A stretch of DNA of 41,683 nucleotides from Thermodesulfovibrionales bacterium (GTDB lineage Bacteria; Nitrospirota; Thermodesulfovibrionia; Thermodesulfovibrionales; Dissulfurispiraceae): contig JAGUWD010000029.1 of assembly GCA_020062545.1 (NCBI GenBank), positions 79,672 to 121,354 of the forward strand, read 5' to 3'. The position numbers and the translations under genes were made by a program. The notes under the pieces are model-generated. The model was not told the DNA's origin, ran no database searches, and saw nothing but the letters and a program-made list of their open reading frames with translations. Of this stretch, positions 428 through 38,081 are shown piece by piece (position 1 is the stretch's first letter; every line of letters begins with the position of its first letter).

Positions 428-593
428 TATATGTCAGGTGCGGCGAAAAGACTTTAAACCTTGCACTTGTAGATACATTTATCTTGTATCTATCATCTAC
501 TACATCGGATACTTGATGGATTAGTTGCTTATAATCTTTCATATACACTTGAATGAACACTTTTTAAAGTCTTTGAGCCGTGCCTGACATATA
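428..593. repeat. 166-bp palindromic element, copy 1 (MITE-like)
   Basis: This element has terminal inverted repeats of about 31 bp. The left end at 428-458 and the complement of 563-593 share TATATGTCAGG, then CGGC, then AAAGACTTTAAA, with 27 of 31 positions identical. A smaller hairpin (AGATACA and TGTATCT, about 471-491) lies inside. A copy of the same length is at 32219-32384, and a related one with different outer ends is at 4270-4438. The similarity to the 32219 copy extends left to about 401. It contains no ORF. It sits between the adaptor gene and the ATPase gene, so it should be transcribed as part of the operon. Confidence 0.85.
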
Positions 594-27379: not shown

Positions 27380-27407
27380 TTGCAGTTATGAAAATTGAGT
27401 GGCGCAT

Positions 27408-29726
27408 ATGAAGAGAAAGAAAATTCTTTATTTCTTTGTAATAGCGATTTTATTTTTCAGTGGCGGCTGCGCTGGCCTCTCTAAAGATATCGAAGTCAGC
27501 TCGCTCATGCAAAAAAAGCGCCATCACGATGTAATTCGGATCCTCCAGCAGGATATTGATCGTAAGGAGGCAATCTCCTCGTTCCAATTGTTTCTCCTTA
27601 GTGCTTCCTATTATGAGATCCGGGATTATGAGAAAATGTTCTCGACGGTGGATATGCTTGAAAAACAGATTGCACACGGCGGCGCCACCTATATTTCTTA
27701 TTTCGGTGCCGACATTTCTGTTTACCCTGGAATTCTTCGTGGTTATGCATATCTTGATCAAGGGGAATACGAGAAAGCGATCAAGGCTGCGGCAGCAGCC
27801 CATGTCCTCCTGAATAGGATTGGCAAATCCAATATTTGGTATCGTTCGCAGCTCATTGATATAGCAAGCATTCTCGGAGTGGCCCATGCCTTTTTGAACC
27901 ACGATGCAGAGGCAGATCGCTGGCTCGATGTCCTGCGGGGCATAGATATTAGCGACACAATTCTGGGGCCGGAAAAATTCACTGCCATTGCCAGAATACA
28001 TATGGCGAAAAAACAATATAATCAAGCCTTGGCTGCCATACAGGACACTGAGGCAAAAGTCTCTGGGTTTGTCACGGTCTTCTATGACCAGACCTTTCAG
28101 GAACTTCCCAAATTTTTTATTTTGACAAAGTGTCAATATGAAACTGGAAAGATTCATGATGCCAGAGAGAATTATGACCAGCTTCTGAAACATCCCCAAA
28201 TTAAACAGATAGGAGGACTTTACTGGCCTATCCTTTTAGATCGGGGCAGAATTGCCCGTATGGAAGGCAAGGAAGTAATAGCTGAACAGCTTCTCAGAGA
28301 GGCTGTTGATGTGATAGAGAAACAACGATCCTCCATCATGTCAGAGGCAGGGAGGATCGGCTATGTGGGAGACAAACAGGCTATTTATCAGGAATTGGTT
28401 GCCCTGCTGATTTCGGGAGGCCGTGCTGCGGAGGCCTTTGAATATGTAGAGCGCTCAAAGTCAAGGGCGCTTGTGGATTTGCTGGCCTCAAACAAGGAAT
28501 TCAGCGTTCCGAAAGATAAGGAACAGGTCGCTTCAATGCTGAAAGAGCTTGAAACGATTGAGGCGGAAGGCAAGGTTATTGATATCAGCAGCATGGCCAC
28601 TGAAAAGGCAAGTCAAAGGAATATCAGGAGCGTTCAGATAAAAGAGAGAATAAAAAACTTAACGCCTGAACTGACATCTCTCGTTACAGTCTCTATACCT
28701 CCTCCAAGTGAAATACAATCGTATATCGGCAATGATGAAACACTCGTTGAATACTATTATCACGGGGAAGACCTTTATGTGTTTGTGTTGACTAAAAATA
28801 CATTAAAGGCTGTAAAACTGGACGGCAAAGGTATTCTGAAAGATATAGAACAGTTCAGAAGATTGCTGCAAGACCCGATATCAACGCAATACCCTGAACT
28901 CTCGCAAGGACTCTATCAAAGACTGATAAAACCGATTGAGAATTTGATCGCCACTCCAAAACTTATTATCGTGCCCCACGGAATCCTTCACTACCTGCCG
29001 TTTAATGCCTTGAACAGCGGGAGCAATTATCTGATAGACAAATACAGCATCAGTTTTCTGCCGAGCGCGAGCGTGATAAAATTCCTTAAACAAAGGCAGG
29101 CGCAAAAAAACCGGCAGACATTGATATTCGGCAACCCCGACCTCGGAGACCCGAAATATGACCTCAAATATGCAGGAGAAGAGGCCGTTGCTATATCGAA
29201 TGAAATGCCTAATGCGAAGGCGCTTTTGCGAAAAGAGGCAACAGAGACCAATTTCAAGAGATTTGCAAATCAGTTTGGATACATCCATTTTGCAACTCAC
29301 GGCATGTTTGAATCCGACTCGCCTTTGAACTCAGGACTCTTTCTTTCAAGGGATGTTGAAAACGACGGATTGTTAAGTGTAAATGAACTATATTCGATCA
29401 GCCTGAATGCGGATTTGGTTACATTGAGCGCCTGTGAAACAGCGCTCGGTAAAATCAATGCCGGAGATGATGTTGTGGGACTTCAGAGGGGATTTCTATA
29501 TGCAGGGGCTAATTCCATTGTTGCAAGCCTGTGGAAAGTGGATGACCTGGCAACCTCGCAATTGATGAAGGAATTTTATTCCAATCTGAAAAAGACAAAT
29601 AAACGAGATGCCTTGAGAGAAGCGCAGTTGGCTGTGAAGAAGCAATATGAACATCCATATTTCTGGGCTGCGTTCCAGTTGACAGGGATGGCTGAGCAGA
29701 AGGATGTAACCGGAGGTGTAAAATGA
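27408..29726 (+). CDS. CHAT-domain lipoprotein with helical repeats
   Basis: About 772 residues. The N-terminus has a lipoprotein signal (LFFSGGC, Cys about 22), so the protein should be membrane-anchored. TPR-like helices cover about 30-350 (for example LDQGEYEKAIKAAAAAHVLL and EQLLREAVDVIEKQRSS), and the CHAT domain occupies about 430-765. The catalytic dyad is His631 in HFATHGMF and Cys676 in LSACETALG, with the usual GFLYAGANSIVASLWKVDD after it. ATG 27408 is preferred to GTG 27399 because it gives a compact lipoprotein signal. Arginine codons are mostly CGN in the N-terminal half and mostly AGA/AGG in the CHAT half, hinting at a domain swap. It overlaps the next gene by 4 bp. Confidence 0.92.
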   Translation: MKRKKILYFFVIAILFFSGGCAGLSKDIEVSSLMQKKRHHDVIRILQQDIDRKEAISSFQLFLLSASYYEIRDYEKMFSTVDMLEKQIAHGGATYISYFGADISVYPGILRGYAYLDQGEYEKAIKAAAAAHVLLNRIGKSNIWYRSQLIDIASILGVAHAFLNHDAEADRWLDVLRGIDISDTILGPEKFTAIARIHMAKKQYNQALAAIQDTEAKVSGFVTVFYDQTFQELPKFFILTKCQYETGKIHDARENYDQLLKHPQIKQIGGLYWPILLDRGRIARMEGKEVIAEQLLREAVDVIEKQRSSIMSEAGRIGYVGDKQAIYQELVALLISGGRAAEAFEYVERSKSRALVDLLASNKEFSVPKDKEQVASMLKELETIEAEGKVIDISSMATEKASQRNIRSVQIKERIKNLTPELTSLVTVSIPPPSEIQSYIGNDETLVEYYYHGEDLYVFVLTKNTLKAVKLDGKGILKDIEQFRRLLQDPISTQYPELSQGLYQRLIKPIENLIATPKLIIVPHGILHYLPFNALNSGSNYLIDKYSISFLPSASVIKFLKQRQAQKNRQTLIFGNPDLGDPKYDLKYAGEEAVAISNEMPNAKALLRKEATETNFKRFANQFGYIHFATHGMFESDSPLNSGLFLSRDVENDGLLSVNELYSISLNADLVTLSACETALGKINAGDDVVGLQRGFLYAGANSIVASLWKVDDLATSQLMKEFYSNLKKTNKRDALREAQLAVKKQYEHPYFWAAFQLTGMAEQKDVTGGVK

Positions 29727-30274
29727 TAAACAGATTGCTTTTTGTGATTTTAATTTCTACTGCTGTTTTATTAAGTTCAAATGTATTTTCCGCCGAACCG
29801 TTGAAATCTTCAGAACTTGATACCATTGAGCCTGAAGAATATGAGATTTTTAATGCAGTTCTTGATAAATATCATGCCCTTGTCTCACTTGAGAAAACAA
29901 CTATGTCTGAAAAAAAGCTGGATAATGCCGATGTTACGCATTTGAAGCGATTGAGCGTCCATGTTGATGCTTATCTAACAGGCGACTTTAATAAGAAAAA
30001 CAGCAGATCATATGAGCTTGAAAAAAGATTTTTTAAGAAGAGATATTTTATGGATGAATCGTATCAGAGTTTTCCGGGCAGCGGCAAGGAAAGCGTAGGA
30101 ATATCGAGGGTGGGCTTCAATAAAGAGAAAGATAGAGCATTGATTTTTGTAAGGTATAAAAGCATAACGCCGCCAGAGGCATTTTACGAAGAAGGCAATT
30201 TTGTTTATCTTGAGAAAAAGGAGGGCAAATGGGTTGCAATAAAAACAGTAATGGCATCGCAAAGGTATTATTAA
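29723..30274 (+). CDS. Small exported protein of unknown function
   Basis: A 183-residue protein with a signal peptide (about 1-25, ending NVFSA). A helical region (EYEIFNAVLDKYHALVSLEK) and a beta-rich C-terminal part (DRALIFVRYKSITPPEAFYE, then WVAIKTVMASQRYY) follow. The terminal layout of strands ending in a conserved-looking aromatic tail is like small NTF2- or lipocalin-type folds, but I cannot assign a family. Its first 25 codons and ribosome binding site are clearly related to those of the WD40-caspase genes at 23411 and 18305 although the rest of the protein is unrelated. It overlaps the CHAT lipoprotein gene by 4 bp, so it is a likely partner or substrate. Confidence 0.7.
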   Translation: MINRLLFVILISTAVLLSSNVFSAEPLKSSELDTIEPEEYEIFNAVLDKYHALVSLEKTTMSEKKLDNADVTHLKRLSVHVDAYLTGDFNKKNSRSYELEKRFFKKRYFMDESYQSFPGSGKESVGISRVGFNKEKDRALIFVRYKSITPPEAFYEEGNFVYLEKKEGKWVAIKTVMASQRYY

Positions 30275-30281
30275 ATATTAA

Positions 30282-31244
30282 TTAATGCTTAGGGCTCCGA
30301 AGGCATTTCTCTATCATATTTTTAGTTTTTGCAATTTCCTTTTTGTCGCCTGCGCTTTCGCTGACAGAGAGCGCCCTTTTGAAATAATCGAGCGCACTGT
30401 TTTTATTACCCTGTTTAAAATAGGTATTACCCATTCCCATTAAATCCTGTGCTATTTTTCTGCTTAAGCCGAGTGTCTTGTCTATGGAAAGCGCGTCTTC
30501 ATAAAACTTTATCGCCTCGCTGTATTCGCCTTTCGCAACCTTTGCCTCGGCTATGAGCCTTAAGGAATTTGCCGTCTCTGCCTCATTTCCGTTTGATTTA
30601 TTGAGCGAGAGTCCTTTATTCCCATATGATATGGCTGAAGCGACATCGCCTTTTTCAAGATAAGCCCTTCCTTTGAGGTTATAAACTTTGCCAATGTTAC
30701 TGCATTGCGAGCTTTGGCAGAAGGATAATAATTTATCTGTCCATTCCAATGTCCTGTCATAATTCTTTTCATCCATGTAAAGCATTGCTTTCAAAAATGC
30801 AGCCTCGGACAGATGTACCGGATTATAGGCAATTGGCGATATATTTAGTATTTCGTCTATCTGTTTGTGTGCATTGTCTTTATCACCGAGCTTGCGATAG
30901 GTGGCAGCCATATTAATTATATTTATCGCAATGCCATCAATGTTTTCGATGGAGCGGTTGATTTTGAGCGCCTCATTGTAAAGCATGAGTGCATTTTCAT
31001 AATCACTATTTTTAAATGAGGATTCTGCCTTCTGGTTGAGATTGACTGCTGAAAGATGGGCATCTGACAATGTTGCATGTTTTGCCCCGCAACCAATTAA
31101 AAACAGGCTATAGGCAATAGGCAACAGACGATAGACGATGGATATTATTATCCTATAGCATTTTGTCTCTTGCCTATCGCATTTTGTTAGCCTATTGCCT
31201 ATAGCCCATTGCCTATTGCCTGTCTTATTCATAGCTGTCCACAT
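30282..31244 (-). CDS. TPR lipoprotein, last gene of the Mla-type operon
   Basis: A 320-residue protein, or 316 if the ATG at 31232 is used. A lipobox (LFLIGC, Cys about residue 52) is preceded by an unusually long N-terminus, much of it encoded by GGCAATA-type heptamer repeats. Five or six TPR units follow (for example NSDYENALMLYNEALKINRS, EKGDVASAISYGNKGLSLNK, YSEAIKFYEDALSIDKTLG, KNSALDYFKRALSVSESAG). The gene overlaps the end of mlaD by 20 bp. It is probably a lipid-anchored scaffold on the outer or inner membrane working with the Mla-type transporter. No MlaA or MlaC homologue is visible in the window. Confidence 0.85.
   Translation of the reverse strand: MWTAMNKTGNRQWAIGNRLTKCDRQETKCYRIIISIVYRLLPIAYSLFLIGCGAKHATLSDAHLSAVNLNQKAESSFKNSDYENALMLYNEALKINRSIENIDGIAINIINMAATYRKLGDKDNAHKQIDEILNISPIAYNPVHLSEAAFLKAMLYMDEKNYDRTLEWTDKLLSFCQSSQCSNIGKVYNLKGRAYLEKGDVASAISYGNKGLSLNKSNGNEAETANSLRLIAEAKVAKGEYSEAIKFYEDALSIDKTLGLSRKIAQDLMGMGNTYFKQGNKNSALDYFKRALSVSESAGDKKEIAKTKNMIEKCLRSPKH
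31106..31222. repeat. Heptamer repeat island arranged as an inverted repeat
   Basis: GGCTATAGGCAATAGGC at 31106-31122 is perfectly complementary to GCCTATTGCCTATAGCC at 31190-31206, with further GGCAATA-like units on both arms and a loop of about 67 bp. It lies inside the coding region for the N-terminus of the TPR lipoprotein and could form a hairpin in its mRNA. Similar islands occur at 1692-1717 and 36829-36856. Confidence 0.8.
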
Positions 31245-32181
31245 CCAAGGTCTTTTCTTCAGGCTCCTTTATGAATAGCCTTATTGGCCATATTTTTTTT
31301 GCTGAATCGGTAATTTCTTTTGCTCCTTCTGCTGCGTCTTCGCCTTTTTTGAGCATGGACGGGATTTTAGGTGCTGTCTGCTCTGTCGCCTTTTTTATTT
31401 CTTCGGTTGTCTTCTGAATATTTTCGAGACTCTTGTTTGTCTTCTCAAGGATATTCGGGATGTCCTTGTCAACCTTCTTTATGAGGTCGTCAACTGTGAT
31501 CATGGTCTGTTTTGTTGAATCGAGTACGGAATCTATTTTCTTTGTTGTCGCATTCACTCCTTTGTTAGCATCCTTGAGCAGGGCATTCAGATTCTGCTGT
31601 GTCTCGGGTAGGTCTTCCGAAATTTTGCGGAGGTTTTTTAATGTCTGTTTAATATCGCCCTGCGGATTGTTGATGTAATGGATTATCTCTTTTACATCGC
31701 TTAGAACAGGCTTTATTTCCTCTTTTAACTCCTCTGCTATTTCGCCGAGCCCCTTTGCCCTTTCAAATTCTATTATTCCATTTTCAGTAACTTGTTTCGC
31801 TTTTTCAGAACCAGGTGTTATTTCTATGACACTGTCGCCGATAAACCCTTCTTTGAAAAGCCTTGCCTTTGAGTCTGTCCTTATCCATTTCATGTATTTT
31901 GTATTTATGGATAGCTCCACCTTTACCCTTGCCACATCGTCCAGGGATAATCTCGCAACCTTTCCTATTTTAAATCCGCTGAGTTTTACTGCGGTTCCTT
32001 CATTTATACCCTGTCCACTGTCGGCTATGAAATATATCTTTGTCCTGGGCGTGAACACGCCGTGTTGTATCCCGATAATAGCCATTGCAGTGACAATACC
32101 TGCAATTGCGATAAAGACAAACAGCCCTATCTTCTTTTCTATGCCGATAAATCTTTCATCCGTTTCTTTCATTAATTCCAT
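31225..32181 (-). CDS. mlaD: MlaD-type MCE-domain lipid transport protein
   Basis: A 318-residue protein. One N-terminal membrane anchor (about 17-38, KIGLFVFIAIAGIVTAMAII) is followed by an MCE domain (about 45-125), with IYFIADSGQGINEGTAVKLS, GFKIGKVARLSLDD and GFIGDSVIEITPGS. A long C-terminal helical region (about 145-300) is rich in Lys, Glu, Asp and Thr. MCE proteins form hexameric rings that carry phospholipids across the periplasm. This one would be the substrate-binding ring for the MlaE-type permease encoded upstream. The ATG at 32181 has TAGGTGAG at good spacing. A 166-bp palindromic element separates it from the ABC-like gene. Confidence 0.93.
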   Translation of the reverse strand: MELMKETDERFIGIEKKIGLFVFIAIAGIVTAMAIIGIQHGVFTPRTKIYFIADSGQGINEGTAVKLSGFKIGKVARLSLDDVARVKVELSINTKYMKWIRTDSKARLFKEGFIGDSVIEITPGSEKAKQVTENGIIEFERAKGLGEIAEELKEEIKPVLSDVKEIIHYINNPQGDIKQTLKNLRKISEDLPETQQNLNALLKDANKGVNATTKKIDSVLDSTKQTMITVDDLIKKVDKDIPNILEKTNKSLENIQKTTEEIKKATEQTAPKIPSMLKKGEDAAEGAKEITDSAKKIWPIRLFIKEPEEKTLDVDSYE

Positions 32182-32218: not shown

Positions 32219-32384
32219 TATATGTCAGGTGCTGCGAAAAGACTTTAAACTCCACACTTGCATTAACATTTATCTTGTATCCGTCATCTACTACATTGGA
32301 TACTTGATGAATAATGCTTTTATTGTCTCTCATATACACTTGAATTAACACTTTTTAAAGTCTTTGACCAGTGCCTGACATATA
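32219..32384. repeat. 166-bp palindromic element, copy 3 (MITE-like)
   Basis: Same length and ends as the copy at 428-593: TATATGTCAGG at both termini, then AAAGACTTTAAA. The interior is also similar (AACATTTATCTTGTATC, CATCTACTACAT, GGATACTTGATG). The similarity extends left through TAAATTGAGC to about 32192. It lies inside the mla operon between the ABC-like gene and mlaD. In both places the extended left flank ends within about 10-15 bp of the start codon of the downstream minus-strand gene, so the orientation relative to that gene is the same. Confidence 0.88.
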
Positions 32385-32403: not shown

Positions 32404-33045
32404 TTATATCCTTAAAATAATATCCGCCCTTACATTCTTGATGGATTGTTCATCAAATGTGATGTATACGGATGTTCTGCCCTGTTTTTCTGCGTGAAAA
32501 TTCATGGTCATTTGCATCAATCTATCCGACATATCGGGGCTCAGCCCTTCAAATAAAGAGTCGTATATCATCAGTTCAGGCTCCATGAGCATTGCCCTTA
32601 TGAGTCCTATCAGCCTTTTCTCATGAACAGGCAGGGGACCTGGCAGTCTTCCTATTAGCTCTTTAAGATATGGGACATCTATACCTGCCTCGTTGAATCT
32701 CTGCTTTACCTTTGCTTCCAGATCCTCCGGCTTTTTTCCTGTATGGTACGATACCGGAAGCACTATGTTCTCCCATACCTTGAGGTTGCTGATCAATCCA
32801 CCGTCTTTCAAAACCACCCCGATCCTGCTGAAAAGCCTGCAAGAATCTTTTTCGGAAAGCGCATATGTTTCCTTGTCGAGCAGAAAAACCCTTCCCGATG
32901 CAGGTCTTTCGAGTCCCACGATGACATTGAGCAGCTTTCTGTTTTCATATTCGGAACGTGTGATAATCTTGCATTCAGAGCCCCTCTTTATCTCAAACGA
33001 GAGCGCATGAAAATGCTCTGTAGCAATATTTTCGAGTCGTATCAT
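32404..33045 (-). CDS. MlaF-like ABC protein lacking all ATPase motifs (degenerate)
   Basis: A 213-residue protein with the overall length and layout of an ABC ATPase domain, encoded exactly where MlaF would be, overlapping mlaE by 4 bp. The key motifs are gone. The P-loop region (about residues 29-37) reads TRSEYENRK instead of GxxGxGKST. The Q-loop glutamine is Lys in GVVLKDGG. The signature LSGGQ is replaced by LPGPLPVHEKRL. Walker B is MIYDSLFEGLSP with Ser in place of the catalytic Glu, and the H-loop His is Phe in YITFDEQ. The frame is intact, so it looks conserved as a protein rather than a pseudogene. It cannot be expected to hydrolyse ATP; it may be a structural or regulatory subunit paired with an ATPase encoded elsewhere. 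Confidence 0.85.
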   Translation of the reverse strand: MIRLENIATEHFHALSFEIKRGSECKIITRSEYENRKLLNVIVGLERPASGRVFLLDKETYALSEKDSCRLFSRIGVVLKDGGLISNLKVWENIVLPVSYHTGKKPEDLEAKVKQRFNEAGIDVPYLKELIGRLPGPLPVHEKRLIGLIRAMLMEPELMIYDSLFEGLSPDMSDRLMQMTMNFHAEKQGRTSVYITFDEQSIKNVRADIILRI

Positions 33046-33818
33046 ACAAACGATATGACTGTAATTATACCATCAAATATGAATACTAAGAACAGGCTCT
33101 GCATAACCGCCCTCGTAGCTGCCTGCGGAATTTCTGTTATTGATGCCTCCACGCTGAAGCCCTGATAGCATGAAACTATGGAGATCAACAATCCGAACAC
33201 AAGGCTTTTAAGAAGGGAGACTAAGACCTCAAAGAGTTTCAGGGCCGAGAATATGCCTTTGAGGTGTTGTGAAAAAGAGAGGTCGAGGAATATCGATGTG
33301 AATGCCAACCCTCCTGCAATTGCCATCACCTGAAAGTAGAACGCAAGGATGAAGACAGAGACCGTAATTCCAGCAACCCTTGGAACAATGAGATAATCCA
33401 CGGGATTAATCCCCATAATCCTGAGGCTGTCGGTCTCCCTGTTGACCTTCATCGAGCCGAGCTCTGAGGAGATGGCGGTGCCGCTTCGTGCTATGATTAT
33501 TATGGCAGCAAGCAATGGCCCGAGTTCTCTCACCACTGTCCAGATGAGTATCTTGCCTGTAAGCACAGCATTTGATCCCACAAGATTCACTATTTGCGTG
33601 ATGATGACAATCCCTATAAGTATCCCTATTGCAGCCACTTTGCTCAATGCTTCTATCCCCGTGAAATATAGCTGTTTGTGTAAGACGGAACGGATTGGGG
33701 CACTGCGTAATAACGGGATATTCCTTACGGAATAACACAATAACGTATAATATCCCTCCAGATATTTAAAGGCATTGATTATATTTTCCCCGATTTTTCG
33801 AATATTAATGATTGTCAT
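33042..33818 (-). CDS. mlaE: MlaE-type lipid ABC transporter permease
   Basis: A 258-residue integral membrane protein with five or six hydrophobic segments (for example AAIGILIGIVIITQIVNLVG and VAGITVSVFILAFYFQVM). It has the MlaE family signature GPLLAAIIIIARSGTAISSE, then GSMKVNRETDSLRIMGINPV and DYLIVPR. It should form the inner-membrane core of a phospholipid transporter with the MCE protein encoded downstream. It is the first gene of the minus-strand operon mlaE, ABC-like, mlaD, TPR lipoprotein. The start at 33818 faces the Crp-type gene with a 69-bp AT-rich gap. Confidence 0.94.
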   Translation of the reverse strand: MTIINIRKIGENIINAFKYLEGYYTLLCYSVRNIPLLRSAPIRSVLHKQLYFTGIEALSKVAAIGILIGIVIITQIVNLVGSNAVLTGKILIWTVVRELGPLLAAIIIIARSGTAISSELGSMKVNRETDSLRIMGINPVDYLIVPRVAGITVSVFILAFYFQVMAIAGGLAFTSIFLDLSFSQHLKGIFSALKLFEVLVSLLKSLVFGLLISIVSCYQGFSVEASITEIPQAATRAVMQSLFLVFIFDGIITVISFV

Positions 33819-33887: not shown

Positions 33888-34586
33888 ATGGAAAAAGGCA
33901 CGAATACAGAATTGATAATGGGCTTCCTTAAGGATCTCCCCATATTCAAAGGACTCCCTGACAGACATTTGAGACATCTGTCAGGTGATTTCATTGTTCG
34001 TAATGTGAGTAAAGGCGAGACTATATTCTATCAGTCCGACAACAGCACAGACCTTTATATAGTCCTTGAAGGGACTGTGAGGGCATCCCTTCTGAATCAT
34101 GATGGAGAGGAACTTATACTCGCAACATTCTGCAAGGGGAATTTCTTTGGCGAGATGAGCCTCCTCGATGGCAAGCCCAGGTCTGCAACAATGATAGCAG
34201 TAGATGATTCAACGCTTGGCATATTAAGGCGGGAGAAGTTTCTCCTTGCAGTCAAAAATGACCCGATGATTGCCATTGACCTGCTTTCGGCAATTGTCCA
34301 GAGGATGAGAATGGCAAACGGCATGATAGAATCCCTGGCATTTTTAGATGTGAGCCAGAGGCTTGTAAAGCTATTATTGCAAATTGCAAAGACAGAGGGT
34401 TATAAGGATGAAGACGGATTTTTCAGGATAAAGAAACTCACACACCGGGAGCTTGCAGCACACACAGGCGCATCAAGGGAGGCCATAACCAAGGTTATGA
34501 AGGTGCTTGCCTTCAGAGAGATGGTAAAAGAGAAGGGCGGTTATTTTTTGATTTCACCCGATGCGGAAGATGTGTATAACGAATAA
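33888..34586 (+). CDS. Crp/Fnr-family transcriptional regulator with cAMP-type binding pocket
   Basis: A 232-residue protein with a cyclic-nucleotide-binding domain (about 15-130). The phosphate-binding cassette is FFGEMSLLDGKPRSATMIA; the Glu and the Arg-Ser pair are the residues that contact cAMP in E. coli CRP. A dimerisation helix (about 125-160) and a winged helix-turn-helix (about 180-225, with LTHRELAAHTGASREAITKV) follow. There are no Fnr-type N-terminal cysteines, so iron-sulfur sensing is unlikely. It is divergent from the mla operon. With a complete adenylate cyclase encoded in the same window it could be the cAMP receptor. No operator could be confidently identified in front of the neighbouring genes. 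Confidence 0.94.
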   Translation: MEKGTNTELIMGFLKDLPIFKGLPDRHLRHLSGDFIVRNVSKGETIFYQSDNSTDLYIVLEGTVRASLLNHDGEELILATFCKGNFFGEMSLLDGKPRSATMIAVDDSTLGILRREKFLLAVKNDPMIAIDLLSAIVQRMRMANGMIESLAFLDVSQRLVKLLLQIAKTEGYKDEDGFFRIKKLTHRELAAHTGASREAITKVMKVLAFREMVKEKGGYFLISPDAEDVYNE

Positions 34587-34666
34587 TTAAGGAAGGTGAA
34601 TTGGCACTTGAAAATATGGGCTTCCAGATTTACACTTGAGCTTATACTAAAAGAGGAGGTATGCCT

Positions 34667-35791
34667 GTGTGTAAGAAAGTAATAGTAGTTCTTTTGTTTC
34701 TTATTGTCCTTCCTACCTCAGAAGCCTTATCTCAGATTAAATGCGTCGATGCCGAAGGTGAAGCCATTATTGTAAACAATGATATCCCCTCTGCAAAGGC
34801 AGAGGCAATAGCACGGGCAAAATGGTCAGCAGTAGAACAGGTGGTTGGCGTTGAGGTGAAGGCTCAGTCTGTAGTGCAGAATATGGCCCTTGTTGACGAC
34901 GCTGTGAGTAAAAACATAAGGGGGTTTGTTGCAGGATATAAGCTATTACAACAAGAAAACAGAAAAGATACGATGTGGGTAAGGATAAATGCATGTATTG
35001 AGCCCACAAAGGCAAAAGACGCCATATCTTCCCTTGCCCTTAATAACTCCGTGGTTGTATTCATTCCCGCAAAGAAACCGGGGGGTATAAGAGAGGAATA
35101 TGAGGAGACCAATATATTGTCAGAGAATCTTATCGGAAGGCTGACAGAGCAGGGATATACTGTTGTCGATGTCGCACCGACCCATACATTGGAAGCAAAA
35201 GAGGTTGAAAATGCGATCAAGAGCGGCAATTTCCTGACCCTGAGAAGCCTTGTGTATAAATTCCTCTCAAACATCCTCCTAATAGGTAAAATCGATTATG
35301 CTATTTCCACAAAAAAGGGAGAGGGCATAGGATACGGCATATCCATGCCTTTTAATAATGTAACGGTAAGGCTCACCTATCGCATTATAGCAAGGGACAA
35401 TACAGGGAAGATGGTTATACTTACATCAGGTACCGAGGAAGGGAAGGGACTTGCAGCGGGTGTTGAGGATGCTGTGGCAAGTGGAATGAAGGAGTTGTCG
35501 CAGAAGATGACGCCGGTTATTCTTGAAAAGGTTTCCCGGTATATAAAGGGAGTTGCAAAGAAGGTGCAGGTCAAGGTTACAGGCGTTAGTGATATGAGCA
35601 CCAATTTTGAGGTCAAGGAAATTCTCCAGAATATAGCATGGGTTACCAATGTTGAAGATAAAGGGCTTGGCGAGTTTATCGTAAGCTATCCTGAGAATTC
35701 GGTATACCTGGCAAACAGCATAGGTCAGAAGGGTAATTTTAAAATAATAGACTTTTCACCATATTCGATAACCGTTGCATATCAGAGATGA
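34667..35791 (+). CDS. Exported FlgT-N/LPP20-like protein
   Basis: About 374 residues. The GTG at 34667 is preferred: the ribosome binding site AGGAGGT ends at 34660, directly against an in-frame ATG at 34661, which leaves no spacer for that ATG but six bases for the GTG. A signal peptide (ending SEALS) is followed by a domain resembling the FlgT N-terminal/LPP20 group (about 22-110, with AEGEAIIVNNDIPSAKAEAI and WSAVEQVVGVEV). A longer middle domain (about 125-270) and a C-terminal alpha/beta part ending YSITVAYQR complete it. FlgT is an outer-membrane H-ring component of Vibrio flagella, but no flagellar genes are in this window. It is followed by a CsgG gene after 29 bp. Confidence 0.72.
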   Translation: MCKKVIVVLLFLIVLPTSEALSQIKCVDAEGEAIIVNNDIPSAKAEAIARAKWSAVEQVVGVEVKAQSVVQNMALVDDAVSKNIRGFVAGYKLLQQENRKDTMWVRINACIEPTKAKDAISSLALNNSVVVFIPAKKPGGIREEYEETNILSENLIGRLTEQGYTVVDVAPTHTLEAKEVENAIKSGNFLTLRSLVYKFLSNILLIGKIDYAISTKKGEGIGYGISMPFNNVTVRLTYRIIARDNTGKMVILTSGTEEGKGLAAGVEDAVASGMKELSQKMTPVILEKVSRYIKGVAKKVQVKVTGVSDMSTNFEVKEILQNIAWVTNVEDKGLGEFIVSYPENSVYLANSIGQKGNFKIIDFSPYSITVAYQR

Positions 35792-35820
35792 GGCTTTAAG
35801 ATACAAAGGAGGAGTATTTT

Positions 35821-36741
35821 ATGACAGTAGTGAAATGGCACCAAAAAATAGTGATATTTTTTTTATTTTCCGTATTAATCGTATTTCAGGGATATGCGGC
35901 AGATGCCGGTGTCAAGAAGATAGCTGTACTTGATTTTGAGGACGCTGCAGTATCGGCACACTTTCAGGCAAGAAACTTCAAAATCGGACGTGCGGTTGCA
36001 GATATCCTGGTTACAGAACTCGTCAAGGATGGGACTTTCAAGGTTATAGAAAGGAGCCAGTTGGAAAAGGTCATCAGCGAGCAGAAATTATCGGCAAGCG
36101 GACTTGTGGATACATCAGAGGTAGCAAAGATAGGGAAGATTTTAGGTGTGAGTGCTATTATTGTCGGAAGTGTTACGCAGTTTGGCATAGACTCAAAGGT
36201 CATGGGCATTTTTGGTATCGGTGTTAAACAGAACTATGCCAGGGTTGCCGTTAATGCACGATTGATAGACACAACAACTGCGGAGATTCTCAATGCTGCT
36301 GAAGGCTCTGCTGAAGAATCGGCATCCGGTGTGCGTATAGAGGGTCTTGCAAATATTGATGCATCGAATATGGCAAATACGATTCTGGGGACTGCAACAA
36401 AGAGCGCACTTGCGAATATCGTTAAACAATTCAAGGAGCAATCAGCTAAATTGAAAGAGACTGTGATTAATGCAAAGGTGGCTTATGTGGATAAGACGAA
36501 TAAGACATGTATTATAGATGCAGGTAAAGACCATGGAGTAACCAACGACACCATATTTTATGTAGTCAAGGTTGTAAAGGAGATAAAAAGCCCTACAACA
36601 GGAGCAGTCATAAAAAGACTGACCGATGTTGTGGCAGAGTTGAAAGTTATCGAAGTCGAAGGTTCAAATGCAACGCTTTTGTGTGTGAGCGGCAAATGCG
36701 ATGTTATCAAGGAAAACGATGATGTATCCACATCGAAATAA
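35821..36741 (+). CDS. CsgG/HfaB-family outer membrane protein
   Basis: A 306-residue protein. A signal peptide (about 1-28) is followed by KKIAVLDFEDAAVS, ILVTELVKDGTFKVIERSQL and KIGKILGVSAIIVGSVTQFG, the standard CsgG core, and then a C-terminal extension (about 210-306) of beta strands (AYVDKTNKTCIIDAGKDHGV). CsgG forms the curli export pore in Enterobacteria. This one lacks the lipobox cysteine, since the signal ends in an Ala-rich type I site (GYAADAG), and no curli subunit is encoded nearby. The start follows AAAGGAGGAG. With the LPP20-like and FlgT-like neighbours it may form an outer-membrane ring. Confidence 0.9.
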   Translation: MTVVKWHQKIVIFFLFSVLIVFQGYAADAGVKKIAVLDFEDAAVSAHFQARNFKIGRAVADILVTELVKDGTFKVIERSQLEKVISEQKLSASGLVDTSEVAKIGKILGVSAIIVGSVTQFGIDSKVMGIFGIGVKQNYARVAVNARLIDTTTAEILNAAEGSAEESASGVRIEGLANIDASNMANTILGTATKSALANIVKQFKEQSAKLKETVINAKVAYVDKTNKTCIIDAGKDHGVTNDTIFYVVKVVKEIKSPTTGAVIKRLTDVVAELKVIEVEGSNATLLCVSGKCDVIKENDDVSTSK

Positions 36742-36827
36742 AAGTGTGAAAATTACCTTTACATGGCATCTCACAGGGGTGTAAACTTGCTTCAGAATGG
36801 CAAATGAAAAACAGGAGGTGTTTTAAA

Positions 36828-38081
36828 ATGGGCAATAGGCAATGGGCAATAGACAATGTGCAAAGGGATAAGAGACTATGGATTTTACTATCCATCACAA
36901 TATTTGTCCTGTTATTTCTTTCTAATTGTGCTCCGAAGGAGATTGCTAAGTGTACTTCTCCCGAGGACAACCAGCAGCATCACTATTTAATGGGGATGAA
37001 GGCTCTGGAAGACGGCAGGATTGATGTAGCACAGAGCAAATTTGACAGGGCAATTTACTGCGAAGAGAAATTCTCACCGGCTCATAGCGGGCTCGCCATT
37101 GTCACTGCTGAGAGGGTGAAGAAACAGGCCGATGCAGGATTCAGAAAGGTTGAGGTTGAAAGAGCCCTTGATTATCTTAAAAAGGCTAAAAAGCTCGCGG
37201 AGACCAATGAAGACAGATTTAATTATCTTACGGCAACGATAAGGGTTCATACTGCCCTCAAACTGAACAACTGGCTTAAAACAGTAGAAGATGCCTTTGG
37301 AGATATTCGTGAATTAAAGGTTGATGAAAATAAATTGATATACTATCAGGGCACAGAATCTGCAAGCTATTTTATGGGCATTGCCTATCTCGAGGCGCTT
37401 GAATTCCAGCAGGCACGGGATAAGTTTGCGGATGTTCTCAATGCAAAAAGAGAGGGCAAATGGCATGAGAAGGCCGACAGGGCATGGAAAAAGACAGACA
37501 AGATTGTTCGTGCAATAGCAGGGATAACAGTGGGTGATGTTGGAAGGAAAATAGCTGTCAAGGACTCGATTACACGCGGGGATCTTGCTGCACTATTGGT
37601 TGACGAGATGAAGATCGACAAACTCTTTGCAGGCCGTATACCTGCTCAATCCCGGATTGATAAAATGAAGGCTGAATTTACACCTGCAGATATTCTTAAT
37701 TATCACTTCAAAGAGGAAATACTCACTATTTTGAAATGGAAGGTCAGAGGCCTTGAGCCAAAGTATGATGAAATGACAAAGGCATATTTATTTAAGCCTA
37801 CAGATGTTGTAAGGCGAGGGGAGATGGCATTTATCCTTGAGGATGTTTTAATAAAACTTACCGGCGATGAAAAGATGGCCACTGCATTCTTCGGACATTC
37901 TAAATCTCCATTTCCTGATGTGCGGCCTACATCGCCATTTTATAATGCCGTTATGAATATGACTACAAGGGGGATAATGGAAGGGGAGTTGTCGGGTGAG
38001 TTCAGGATTGACTCACCTGTGGACGGATCAGAGGCAATCCTTGCCATAAGGGTACTGAAACAGAGAATGAATGTTTATTAA
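36828..38081 (+). CDS. Lipoprotein with TPR-like region and C-terminal SLH-like domain
   Basis: About 417 residues. ATG 36828 was chosen because AGGAGGTG precedes it and the in-frame ATG at 36804 lies before that site. The first codons (MGNRQWAIDN) are encoded by a GGCAATA-type repeat. A lipobox (LLFLSNC) follows a hydrophobic stretch. Residues about 50-230 are helical and TPR-like (MKALEDGRIDVAQSKFDRAI, YLEALEFQQARDKFADVL). The C-terminal part has S-layer-homology-like segments (DSITRGDLAALLVDEMKI, DVVRRGEMAFILEDVL, FPDVRPTSPFYNAVMNMTTR). SLH domains bind cell-wall polymers, so the protein may tether the membrane to the wall. Confidence 0.82.
   Translation: MGNRQWAIDNVQRDKRLWILLSITIFVLLFLSNCAPKEIAKCTSPEDNQQHHYLMGMKALEDGRIDVAQSKFDRAIYCEEKFSPAHSGLAIVTAERVKKQADAGFRKVEVERALDYLKKAKKLAETNEDRFNYLTATIRVHTALKLNNWLKTVEDAFGDIRELKVDENKLIYYQGTESASYFMGIAYLEALEFQQARDKFADVLNAKREGKWHEKADRAWKKTDKIVRAIAGITVGDVGRKIAVKDSITRGDLAALLVDEMKIDKLFAGRIPAQSRIDKMKAEFTPADILNYHFKEEILTILKWKVRGLEPKYDEMTKAYLFKPTDVVRRGEMAFILEDVLIKLTGDEKMATAFFGHSKSPFPDVRPTSPFYNAVMNMTTRGIMEGELSGEFRIDSPVDGSEAILAIRVLKQRMNVY
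36829..36856. repeat. Heptamer repeat island within a coding start
   Basis: GGCAATAGGCAATGGGCAAT plus further degenerate units lies directly after the ATG of the SLH-like lipoprotein gene. It is read as GNRQWAIDN. It is related to the islands at 1692-1717 and 31106-31222. Confidence 0.75.

Follow-up and report, generated by a model that had tools for sequence, protein, structure and literature searches.

The MlaF-position gene of an Mla-like operon in a Thermodesulfovibrionales bacterium (Nitrospirota) was found to encode a pseudo-ATPase, here called pseudo-MlaF, which has an intact ABC fold under purifying selection, has lost both halves of the ATP site and is found alongside the same trio of partners across several phyla. 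The operon lies within the stretch of 41,683 nucleotides that was analysed as a whole (the window; contig JAGUWD010000029.1, positions 79,672 to 121,354). It is a Mla-like MCE system with a conserved pseudo-ATPase, distinct from the described Mla-type systems with which it was compared, and no earlier description of a degenerate MlaF family was found in the literature searched (preprints and most subscription journals lay outside its scope).

The pseudo-MlaF open reading frame (32404-33045, minus strand; 213 aa) starts with ATG, contains no internal stop or frameshift and shares 4 bp with mlaE (33042-33818). The ORF, the alignment, an AlphaFold model and a structural match together identified the product as a catalytically degenerate ABC ATPase fold. 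The protein matched the Pfam family ABC_tran above cut-off, and scored 42 bits against a cut-off of 441 with the NCBIfam MlaF model. The AlphaFold model (pLDDT 96) showed the NBD fold, with E. coli MlaF (6xbd_I) as the closest PDB structure (Z 25.2, 206 residues aligned); a chance resemblance to ABC ATPases was ruled out by the ABC_tran match and the Z of 25 over 206 residues. Pseudo-MlaF ends at the position of E. coli MlaF residue 218 and therefore does not have the C-terminal 'handshake' extension, which is required for E. coli MlaF function (PMC7367683).

The ATP-site motifs were compared with those of 23 canonical MlaFs, where the motif residues are invariant or almost so. The P-loop GxxGxGKS was found to be replaced by TRSEYENR (residues 29-36; 32938-32961, minus strand), with the Lys changed to N35 and all P-loop Gly gone, and the Q-loop Gln by K80. 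The ABC signature, canonically LSGGM, reads LPVHE (residues 138-142; 32620-32634, minus strand), Walker B (32557-32574, minus strand) retains Asp162 with the catalytic Glu changed to Ser163, and the H-loop His is Phe197 (32455-32457, minus strand). Of the 12 catalytic-motif residues that a MlaF ATPase carries in its Walker A, Q-loop, ABC signature, Walker B and H-loop, pseudo-MlaF consequently retains one (Walker B D162). The preliminary description, made from the window alone, had reported these replacements (P-loop, Q-loop Gln, signature, Walker B Glu and H-loop His) in a full-length ORF with no frameshift and a 4-bp mlaE overlap, all of which was confirmed here; its wording that every ATPase motif had been lost holds for 11 of the 12 motif residues and fails for D162. 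In an NBD dimer, one subunit contributes the P-loop and its partner the signature to every ATP site. Because the sites are two-subunit composites, a pseudo-MlaF homodimer would have no complete site and a mixed dimer with canonical MlaF would be short of one half of each; pseudo-MlaF thus falls short of the pair of complete sites (P-loop with opposing LSGGQ) expected of an NBD dimer. Sequencing error was rejected as a cause, as relatives 97% and 77% identical carry identical residues at the motif positions.

A decaying copy heading for loss might be suspected from the replacement of all the catalytic residues, but dN/dS for pseudo-MlaF was 0.09-0.20 in nine pairs (mlaE, 0.05-0.22; MCE gene, 0.06-0.18), and the same degenerate state was shared, in full-length and intact frames, by 89 loci in several phyla. 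By these three lines decay was ruled out, and we regard it as scarcely credible.

The same pseudo-MlaF, with the same residues degenerate, was present in 19 of 60 related genomes at 31-97% identity. Its mlaE clade was present in exactly these 19, side by side with it; in the remaining 41 every MlaE is canonical. When bacterial genomes were scanned with the family profile and the pattern ISNL..EN, 80 loci were recovered, which after merging with the relatives and removal of duplicates gave 89 non-redundant loci with pseudo-MlaF. The gene order was mlaE, pseudo-MlaF, MCE gene, TPR gene in 61 of the 89 and pseudo-MlaF, MCE, TPR, then mlaE in 18 (mainly Gallionellaceae); the remainder were split or interrupted at contig ends. 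Where mlaE was adjacent to pseudo-MlaF (63 loci), 30 loci had the 4-bp overlap. According to record titles and NCBI ranks (titles of metagenome bins being fallible), the hosts belong to Nitrospirota, Thermodesulfobacteriota (Geobacteraceae, Syntrophorhabdales), other 'Deltaproteobacteria' (some assigned to Myxococcota by NCBI), Pseudomonadota (including Gallionellaceae and Acidiferrobacterales) and Verrucomicrobiota.

The two signature glycines were found in none of the 89 loci. The catalytic Glu was retained in 4, the H-loop His in 3, the Q-loop Gln in 5, the full GxxGxGK[ST] in 5 and the P-loop Lys in 39. When seven core catalytic residues were counted (K, Q, S, G, G, E, H), none was kept in 22 loci, one in 50, two in 16 and three, the maximum, in a single locus, so that 72 of 89 keep 0 or 1. 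The preliminary description had treated pseudo-MlaF as a single odd copy, which did not stand, as it is an ancient multi-phylum family. The alignment of homologues that it had proposed revealed the same degenerate state in the 19 relatives and the 89 loci, and the sister genomes with intact motifs that would have told against it were absent, all 19 relatives with this mlaE type having the degenerate protein.

Because the 80-locus scan required ISNL..EN, loci were additionally picked by MlaE alone, and these MlaE-selected loci, with the MlaF sequence ignored, have the same degenerate neighbour. Among 296 genomes of Nitrospirota, the phylum of the window, those with a top-clade MlaE (E < 1e-80) also have pseudo-MlaF, and the two adjoin, the exceptions being G080, where they lie on different contigs, and a second operon copy of G226. 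In this copy (L170, G226:C34), mlaE is followed directly by a short MCE ORF and a TPR gene with pseudo-MlaF missing, possibly through an assembly error. No intact MlaF was found beside a main-clade MlaE in the MlaE-only searches of Nitrospirota and of the phylum of Trichlorobacter (Thermodesulfobacteriota).

Less degenerate forms were found around the main clade. In a sister group, mostly of the Nitrospirota family f27, the same four genes are present and the MlaF-position protein has a P-loop GPSRSGKS and mostly a Q-loop Gln, with a broken signature (LNQGE), a Walker B of DD, DS or DE and no His. Within Thermodesulfobacteriota, no main-clade protein retains the signature, the catalytic Glu or the His; the closest relatives of this clade show GPSGSGKST, FVFQD, LSLGL and DE or DD, likewise with no His. 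Intact or near-intact P-loops occurred in one early-branching deltaproteobacterial group of the family and in the sister groups, both of which are without the H-loop His and a normal LSGGQ. In the ABC tree, the main-clade pseudo-MlaFs formed one clade (SH-aLRT 99) with the f27 intermediates outside it, and the first split within the clade was the deltaproteobacterial branch holding the P-loop-bearing members. The MlaE tree agreed, with an own clade (support 99) barring one spurious long-branched row; both are quick trees with several long branches. The likely order of loss was H-loop and signature, then Walker B Glu, then P-loop. In a further MlaE lineage of Trichlorobacter's phylum (L244-L247), the MlaF-position protein is also without a P-loop, perhaps independently.

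As several sister lineages keep the P-loop, some members of the wider group may still bind ATP, though without hydrolysing it normally. It is very unlikely, however, that such binding still gates the transporter itself: the GPSGSGKS-type P-loops of the sister groups and the P-loop Lys of 39 of the 89 family members would be in keeping with it, but the window protein has neither the Lys nor any P-loop Gly, the full GxxGxGK[ST] occurs in only 5 of 89, and the signature needed for ATP sandwiching occurs in 0 of 89.

The partner permease (33042-33818, minus strand; 258 aa) belongs to the MlaE family (PF02405, E 6.6e-60) and falls, by clade profile and by its own clade in the MlaE tree (99), with the MlaEs that accompany pseudo-MlaF. 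The lipid-site charges Arg97 and Glu98, whose roles in MlaE are described in PMC7790496, are largely retained in the clade. Conservation was compared as mean information between 66 pseudo-MlaFs and the 23 canonical MlaFs, and fell over the whole protein from 3.04 bits in canonical to 2.01 in pseudo-MlaF and within the P-loop from 3.91 to 1.47, while rising from 3.26 to 3.41 at residues 82-101. This permease-facing segment (32743-32802, minus strand; GGLISNLKVWENIVLPVSYH) has invariant columns in both alignments, includes the MlaE-contact positions 84, 96 and 100 and, together with residues 134-150, is strongly conserved outside the ATP site. The invariance of ISNL..EN in the 80-locus alignment is partly by construction, because the scan pattern contained it; in the 19 relatives, which were found without the pattern, I85, S86, N87, L88, E92, N93, L96, P97, Y100 and H101 are invariant.

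In E. coli, the MlaE coupling-helix residues R142, S131, Q128, E127 and M135 touch MlaF E112, R157, L96, R52 and Y108 (PMC7784689). By alignment, with the E. coli numbering inferred from offsets, these MlaF residues correspond to Y100, R150, L84, N40 and L96 of pseudo-MlaF. Y100 was conserved in 59 of the 66 pseudo-MlaFs, R150 in 63, L84 in 54 and L96 in 66, so that four of the five contact positions are 82-100% conserved; position 40 is variable. In the coupling-helix region of MlaE (residues 119-147; 33378-33464, minus strand), E127, present in 88% of canonical MlaEs, is absent from the clade (R in the window), Q128 is replaced by an invariant Glu (E128) and R142 by an invariant Tyr (Y142). 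The fifth contact pair, MlaF R52-MlaE E127, is lost on both sides. Mainly because of the conserved contact face and of this two-sided loss, pseudo-MlaF probably still docks on its own MlaE, as judged from conservation and the homologous contact map.

These interface data bear on the main rival to the clamp model developed below, in which a canonical MlaF encoded elsewhere drives the permease and pseudo-MlaF is a regulator or a place-holder exchanged for it. The preliminary description had proposed a search for a second MlaF, and the window's genome has two canonical mlaF genes, beside two other mlaE genes; the third-best match, considered as an orphan MlaF, adjoins LptC- and LptA-like genes and was read as LptB. 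At least one further MlaE was present in all 19 pseudo-MlaF relatives and in 21 of 21 other host genomes examined, and MceG, which serves several Mce systems in trans, is an established precedent (PMC9947336). Canonical MlaE was, however, present in 60 of 60 relatives with or without pseudo-MlaF, and its co-occurrence therefore carries no information. The loss of E127 from the MlaE coupling helix, with the clade-specific E128 and Y142 gained, argues against exchange with canonical MlaF, and conservation in pseudo-MlaF is strongest on the very face that would compete for the same site. We accordingly consider an ATPase supplied in trans unlikely.

The third partner is an MCE protein (31225-32181, minus strand; 318 aa; PF02470, E 5.2e-15; AlphaFold, alignment) with an N-terminal membrane helix, one MCE domain and a predicted long, needle-like helix of about 150 residues; the AlphaFold model was confident in just the membrane helix and the MCE domain, and the helices at 145-295 were modelled, as a monomer, with low confidence. 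The fourth conserved gene encodes a TPR lipoprotein (30282-31244, minus strand; Pfam, lipobox LIGC-G). By a simple rule, 73 of 83 TPR proteins have a lipobox, and because Asp never follows it, the lipoprotein fits outer-membrane sorting by the E. coli rule. No MlaC or MlaB gene was found in the operon among the ORFs and Pfam matches of the neighbours. With a putative needle helix like that of MpcD, taken from the low-confidence prediction, and a lipoprotein as fourth partner, the four-gene system appears to resemble a trans-envelope bridge.

On balance we favour, with moderate confidence, a reading of pseudo-MlaF as a structural clamp on the MlaE dimer in an ATP-independent trans-envelope lipid conduit. 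Two copies of pseudo-MlaF would sit on the coupling helices of the dimer and lock MlaE in one conformation, probably the outward-open one; the MCE hexamer, together with its helices, would form a hydrophobic tunnel that crosses the periplasm and leads to the outer-membrane TPR lipoprotein; and lipid would pass along this conduit without ATP, passively or driven by something else, with pseudo-MlaF acting as an assembly clamp rather than a motor. MCE systems without an ATPase exist, as in PqiABC, where PqiA has no ATPase domain (PMC12436622), and nucleotide-free MlaE adopts an outward-open state from which an unbroken hydrophobic path leads into MlaD (PMC7790496). AsmA-like proteins have been suggested as lipid-diffusion channels (PMC11226057). 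Against the clamp model stand the missing handshake that E. coli MlaF needs, the canonical MlaE system in every genome examined, the P-loops of several sister lineages and the low confidence of the helix prediction behind the needle. The preliminary description had rightly recognised a pseudo-ATPase in an Mla-type operon, both being real, and had left open an ATPase from elsewhere or working without ATP; the second fits better, as mutual docking is indicated by the surface that pseudo-MlaF has conserved and by the altered coupling helix of its MlaE, and the first keeps some small probability given the two canonical MlaFs in the genome.

Several genes were observed around the operon. A CRP-like regulator gene (33888-34586) and mlaE are divergently transcribed. 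Between the TPR gene and mlaE, Gallionellaceae loci (e.g. L121:8217-10004) encode a protein with apparent CHASE2 and adenylate cyclase domains, and a similar CHASE2/cyclase-type protein adjoins mlaE in L077 (domains read by eye in both cases). A cluster of FlgT-like, CsgG-family and SLH-domain genes (34661-38081) is found again close to the operon in deltaproteobacteria (e.g. loci L117, L118). About 16 deltaproteobacterial loci share, upstream of mlaE, a conserved protein of about 250 aa that resembles an outer-membrane beta-barrel (e.g. L109:4129-4875) and is a possible outer-membrane partner. A TPR-CHAT protein with a predicted protease-like domain (27399-29726) and a small ORF (29723-30274) are convergent with the operon.

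A MITE-like element of 166 bp with 31-nt terminal inverted repeats (32219-32384) is inserted between the pseudo-MlaF and MCE genes and is not part of the system; a 97% identical relative (L065) has only 9 bp at this site. The element has 45 matches in the genome, nearly 30 of them near full length, including one near window positions 428-593 and one just past the canonical mlaE match on contig C4. Tandem 7-bp repeats (TTGCCTA type) lie at 1692-1718, 31190-31221 and 36827-36857, two of which enter the N-terminal signal regions of the TPR lipoprotein (30282-31244) and an SLH protein (36804-38081); relatives show similar repetitive signal peptides.

Pseudo-MlaF might also be a regulatory pseudoenzyme that, with no energy role, opens or closes the MlaE-MCE channel on sensing a ligand or protein. 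The strong conservation outside the ATP site (82-101, 134-150) and the CRP-like regulator gene, or CHASE2-type cyclases in other lineages, beside the operon would agree with this, but neither a second conserved surface nor a ligand pocket was found in pseudo-MlaF; we think it quite improbable, and it is compatible with the clamp model rather than opposed to it.

The ATP need of MCE transporters and the direction of their lipid movement are debated, and a lineage keeping the permease, the MCE tunnel and the NBD fold without ATP hydrolysis is a natural experiment on this question. The system also offers a test of NBD roles beyond ATP burning, an evolutionary series in which the ATPase is lost by degrees, and what is likely to be another ATP-independent route for lipids in diderms, and the annotation 'ABC transporter ATP-binding protein' in these operons is functionally wrong. 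We hold as an evenly balanced proposition that these operons represent a widespread class of envelope lipid transporter, in which an ABC transporter turned into an ATP-independent trans-envelope lipid bridge with the former ATPase as clamp, and of which graded intermediates survive in f27 and in Trichlorobacter's phylum.

Like MlaFEDB of E. coli, Acinetobacter and Pseudomonas, the system combines an MlaE permease, an MCE protein and an NBD-fold subunit in one operon, but here the ATP-site motifs and C-terminal handshake are lost, the MCE protein has a long helix and a length of about 318 aa, and instead of MlaC, MlaB and MlaA genes the operon has one for a TPR lipoprotein. The nearest layout is that of the Mla-Pqi chimeric system Mpc of Brucella abortus, MpcEFDA, with MlaE-like, MlaF-like, single-MCE and outer-membrane lipoprotein genes; MpcD likewise has a single MCE domain, a similar length (~330 aa) and a coiled-coil needle, to which the 318 aa and the low-confidence helices 145-295 of the window's MCE protein would correspond (PMC12436622). 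In contrast, the MlaF-like ATPase of Mpc is conserved, MpcE bears a STAS domain and the lipoprotein is PqiC-like (PMC12436622), whereas here the ATPase is dead, MlaE contains only PF02405 and the lipoprotein is of TPR type.

PqiABC and LetAB share MCE tunnels working without an ATPase as well as a periplasm-spanning needle and an outer-membrane lipoprotein (PqiC), but neither PqiA nor LetA is related to MlaE or has an NBD, and PqiB and LetB have several MCE domains; the present parts are ABC-derived, with an MlaE-family permease and a single MCE domain in place of a PqiA/LetA-type membrane protein and a multi-MCE protein. Veillonella parvula MlaEFD is similarly minimal (MlaE, MlaF and a long MlaD proposed as an envelope bridge), but differs in an MlaF with no reported motif loss, an MlaD with an outer-membrane beta-barrel and the lack of a TPR lipoprotein (PMC10665443). 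Mycobacterial Mce operons, served by MceG in trans, also have no working ATPase of their own, but there the NBD gene is wholly absent, whereas here a pseudo-NBD is retained in the operon. Finally, ABC exporters with one degenerate nucleotide site show natural loss of ATP-site residues in an NBD, but one of their two sites still works (PMC7756269), whereas by motif content both sites of any dimer containing pseudo-MlaF would be dead.
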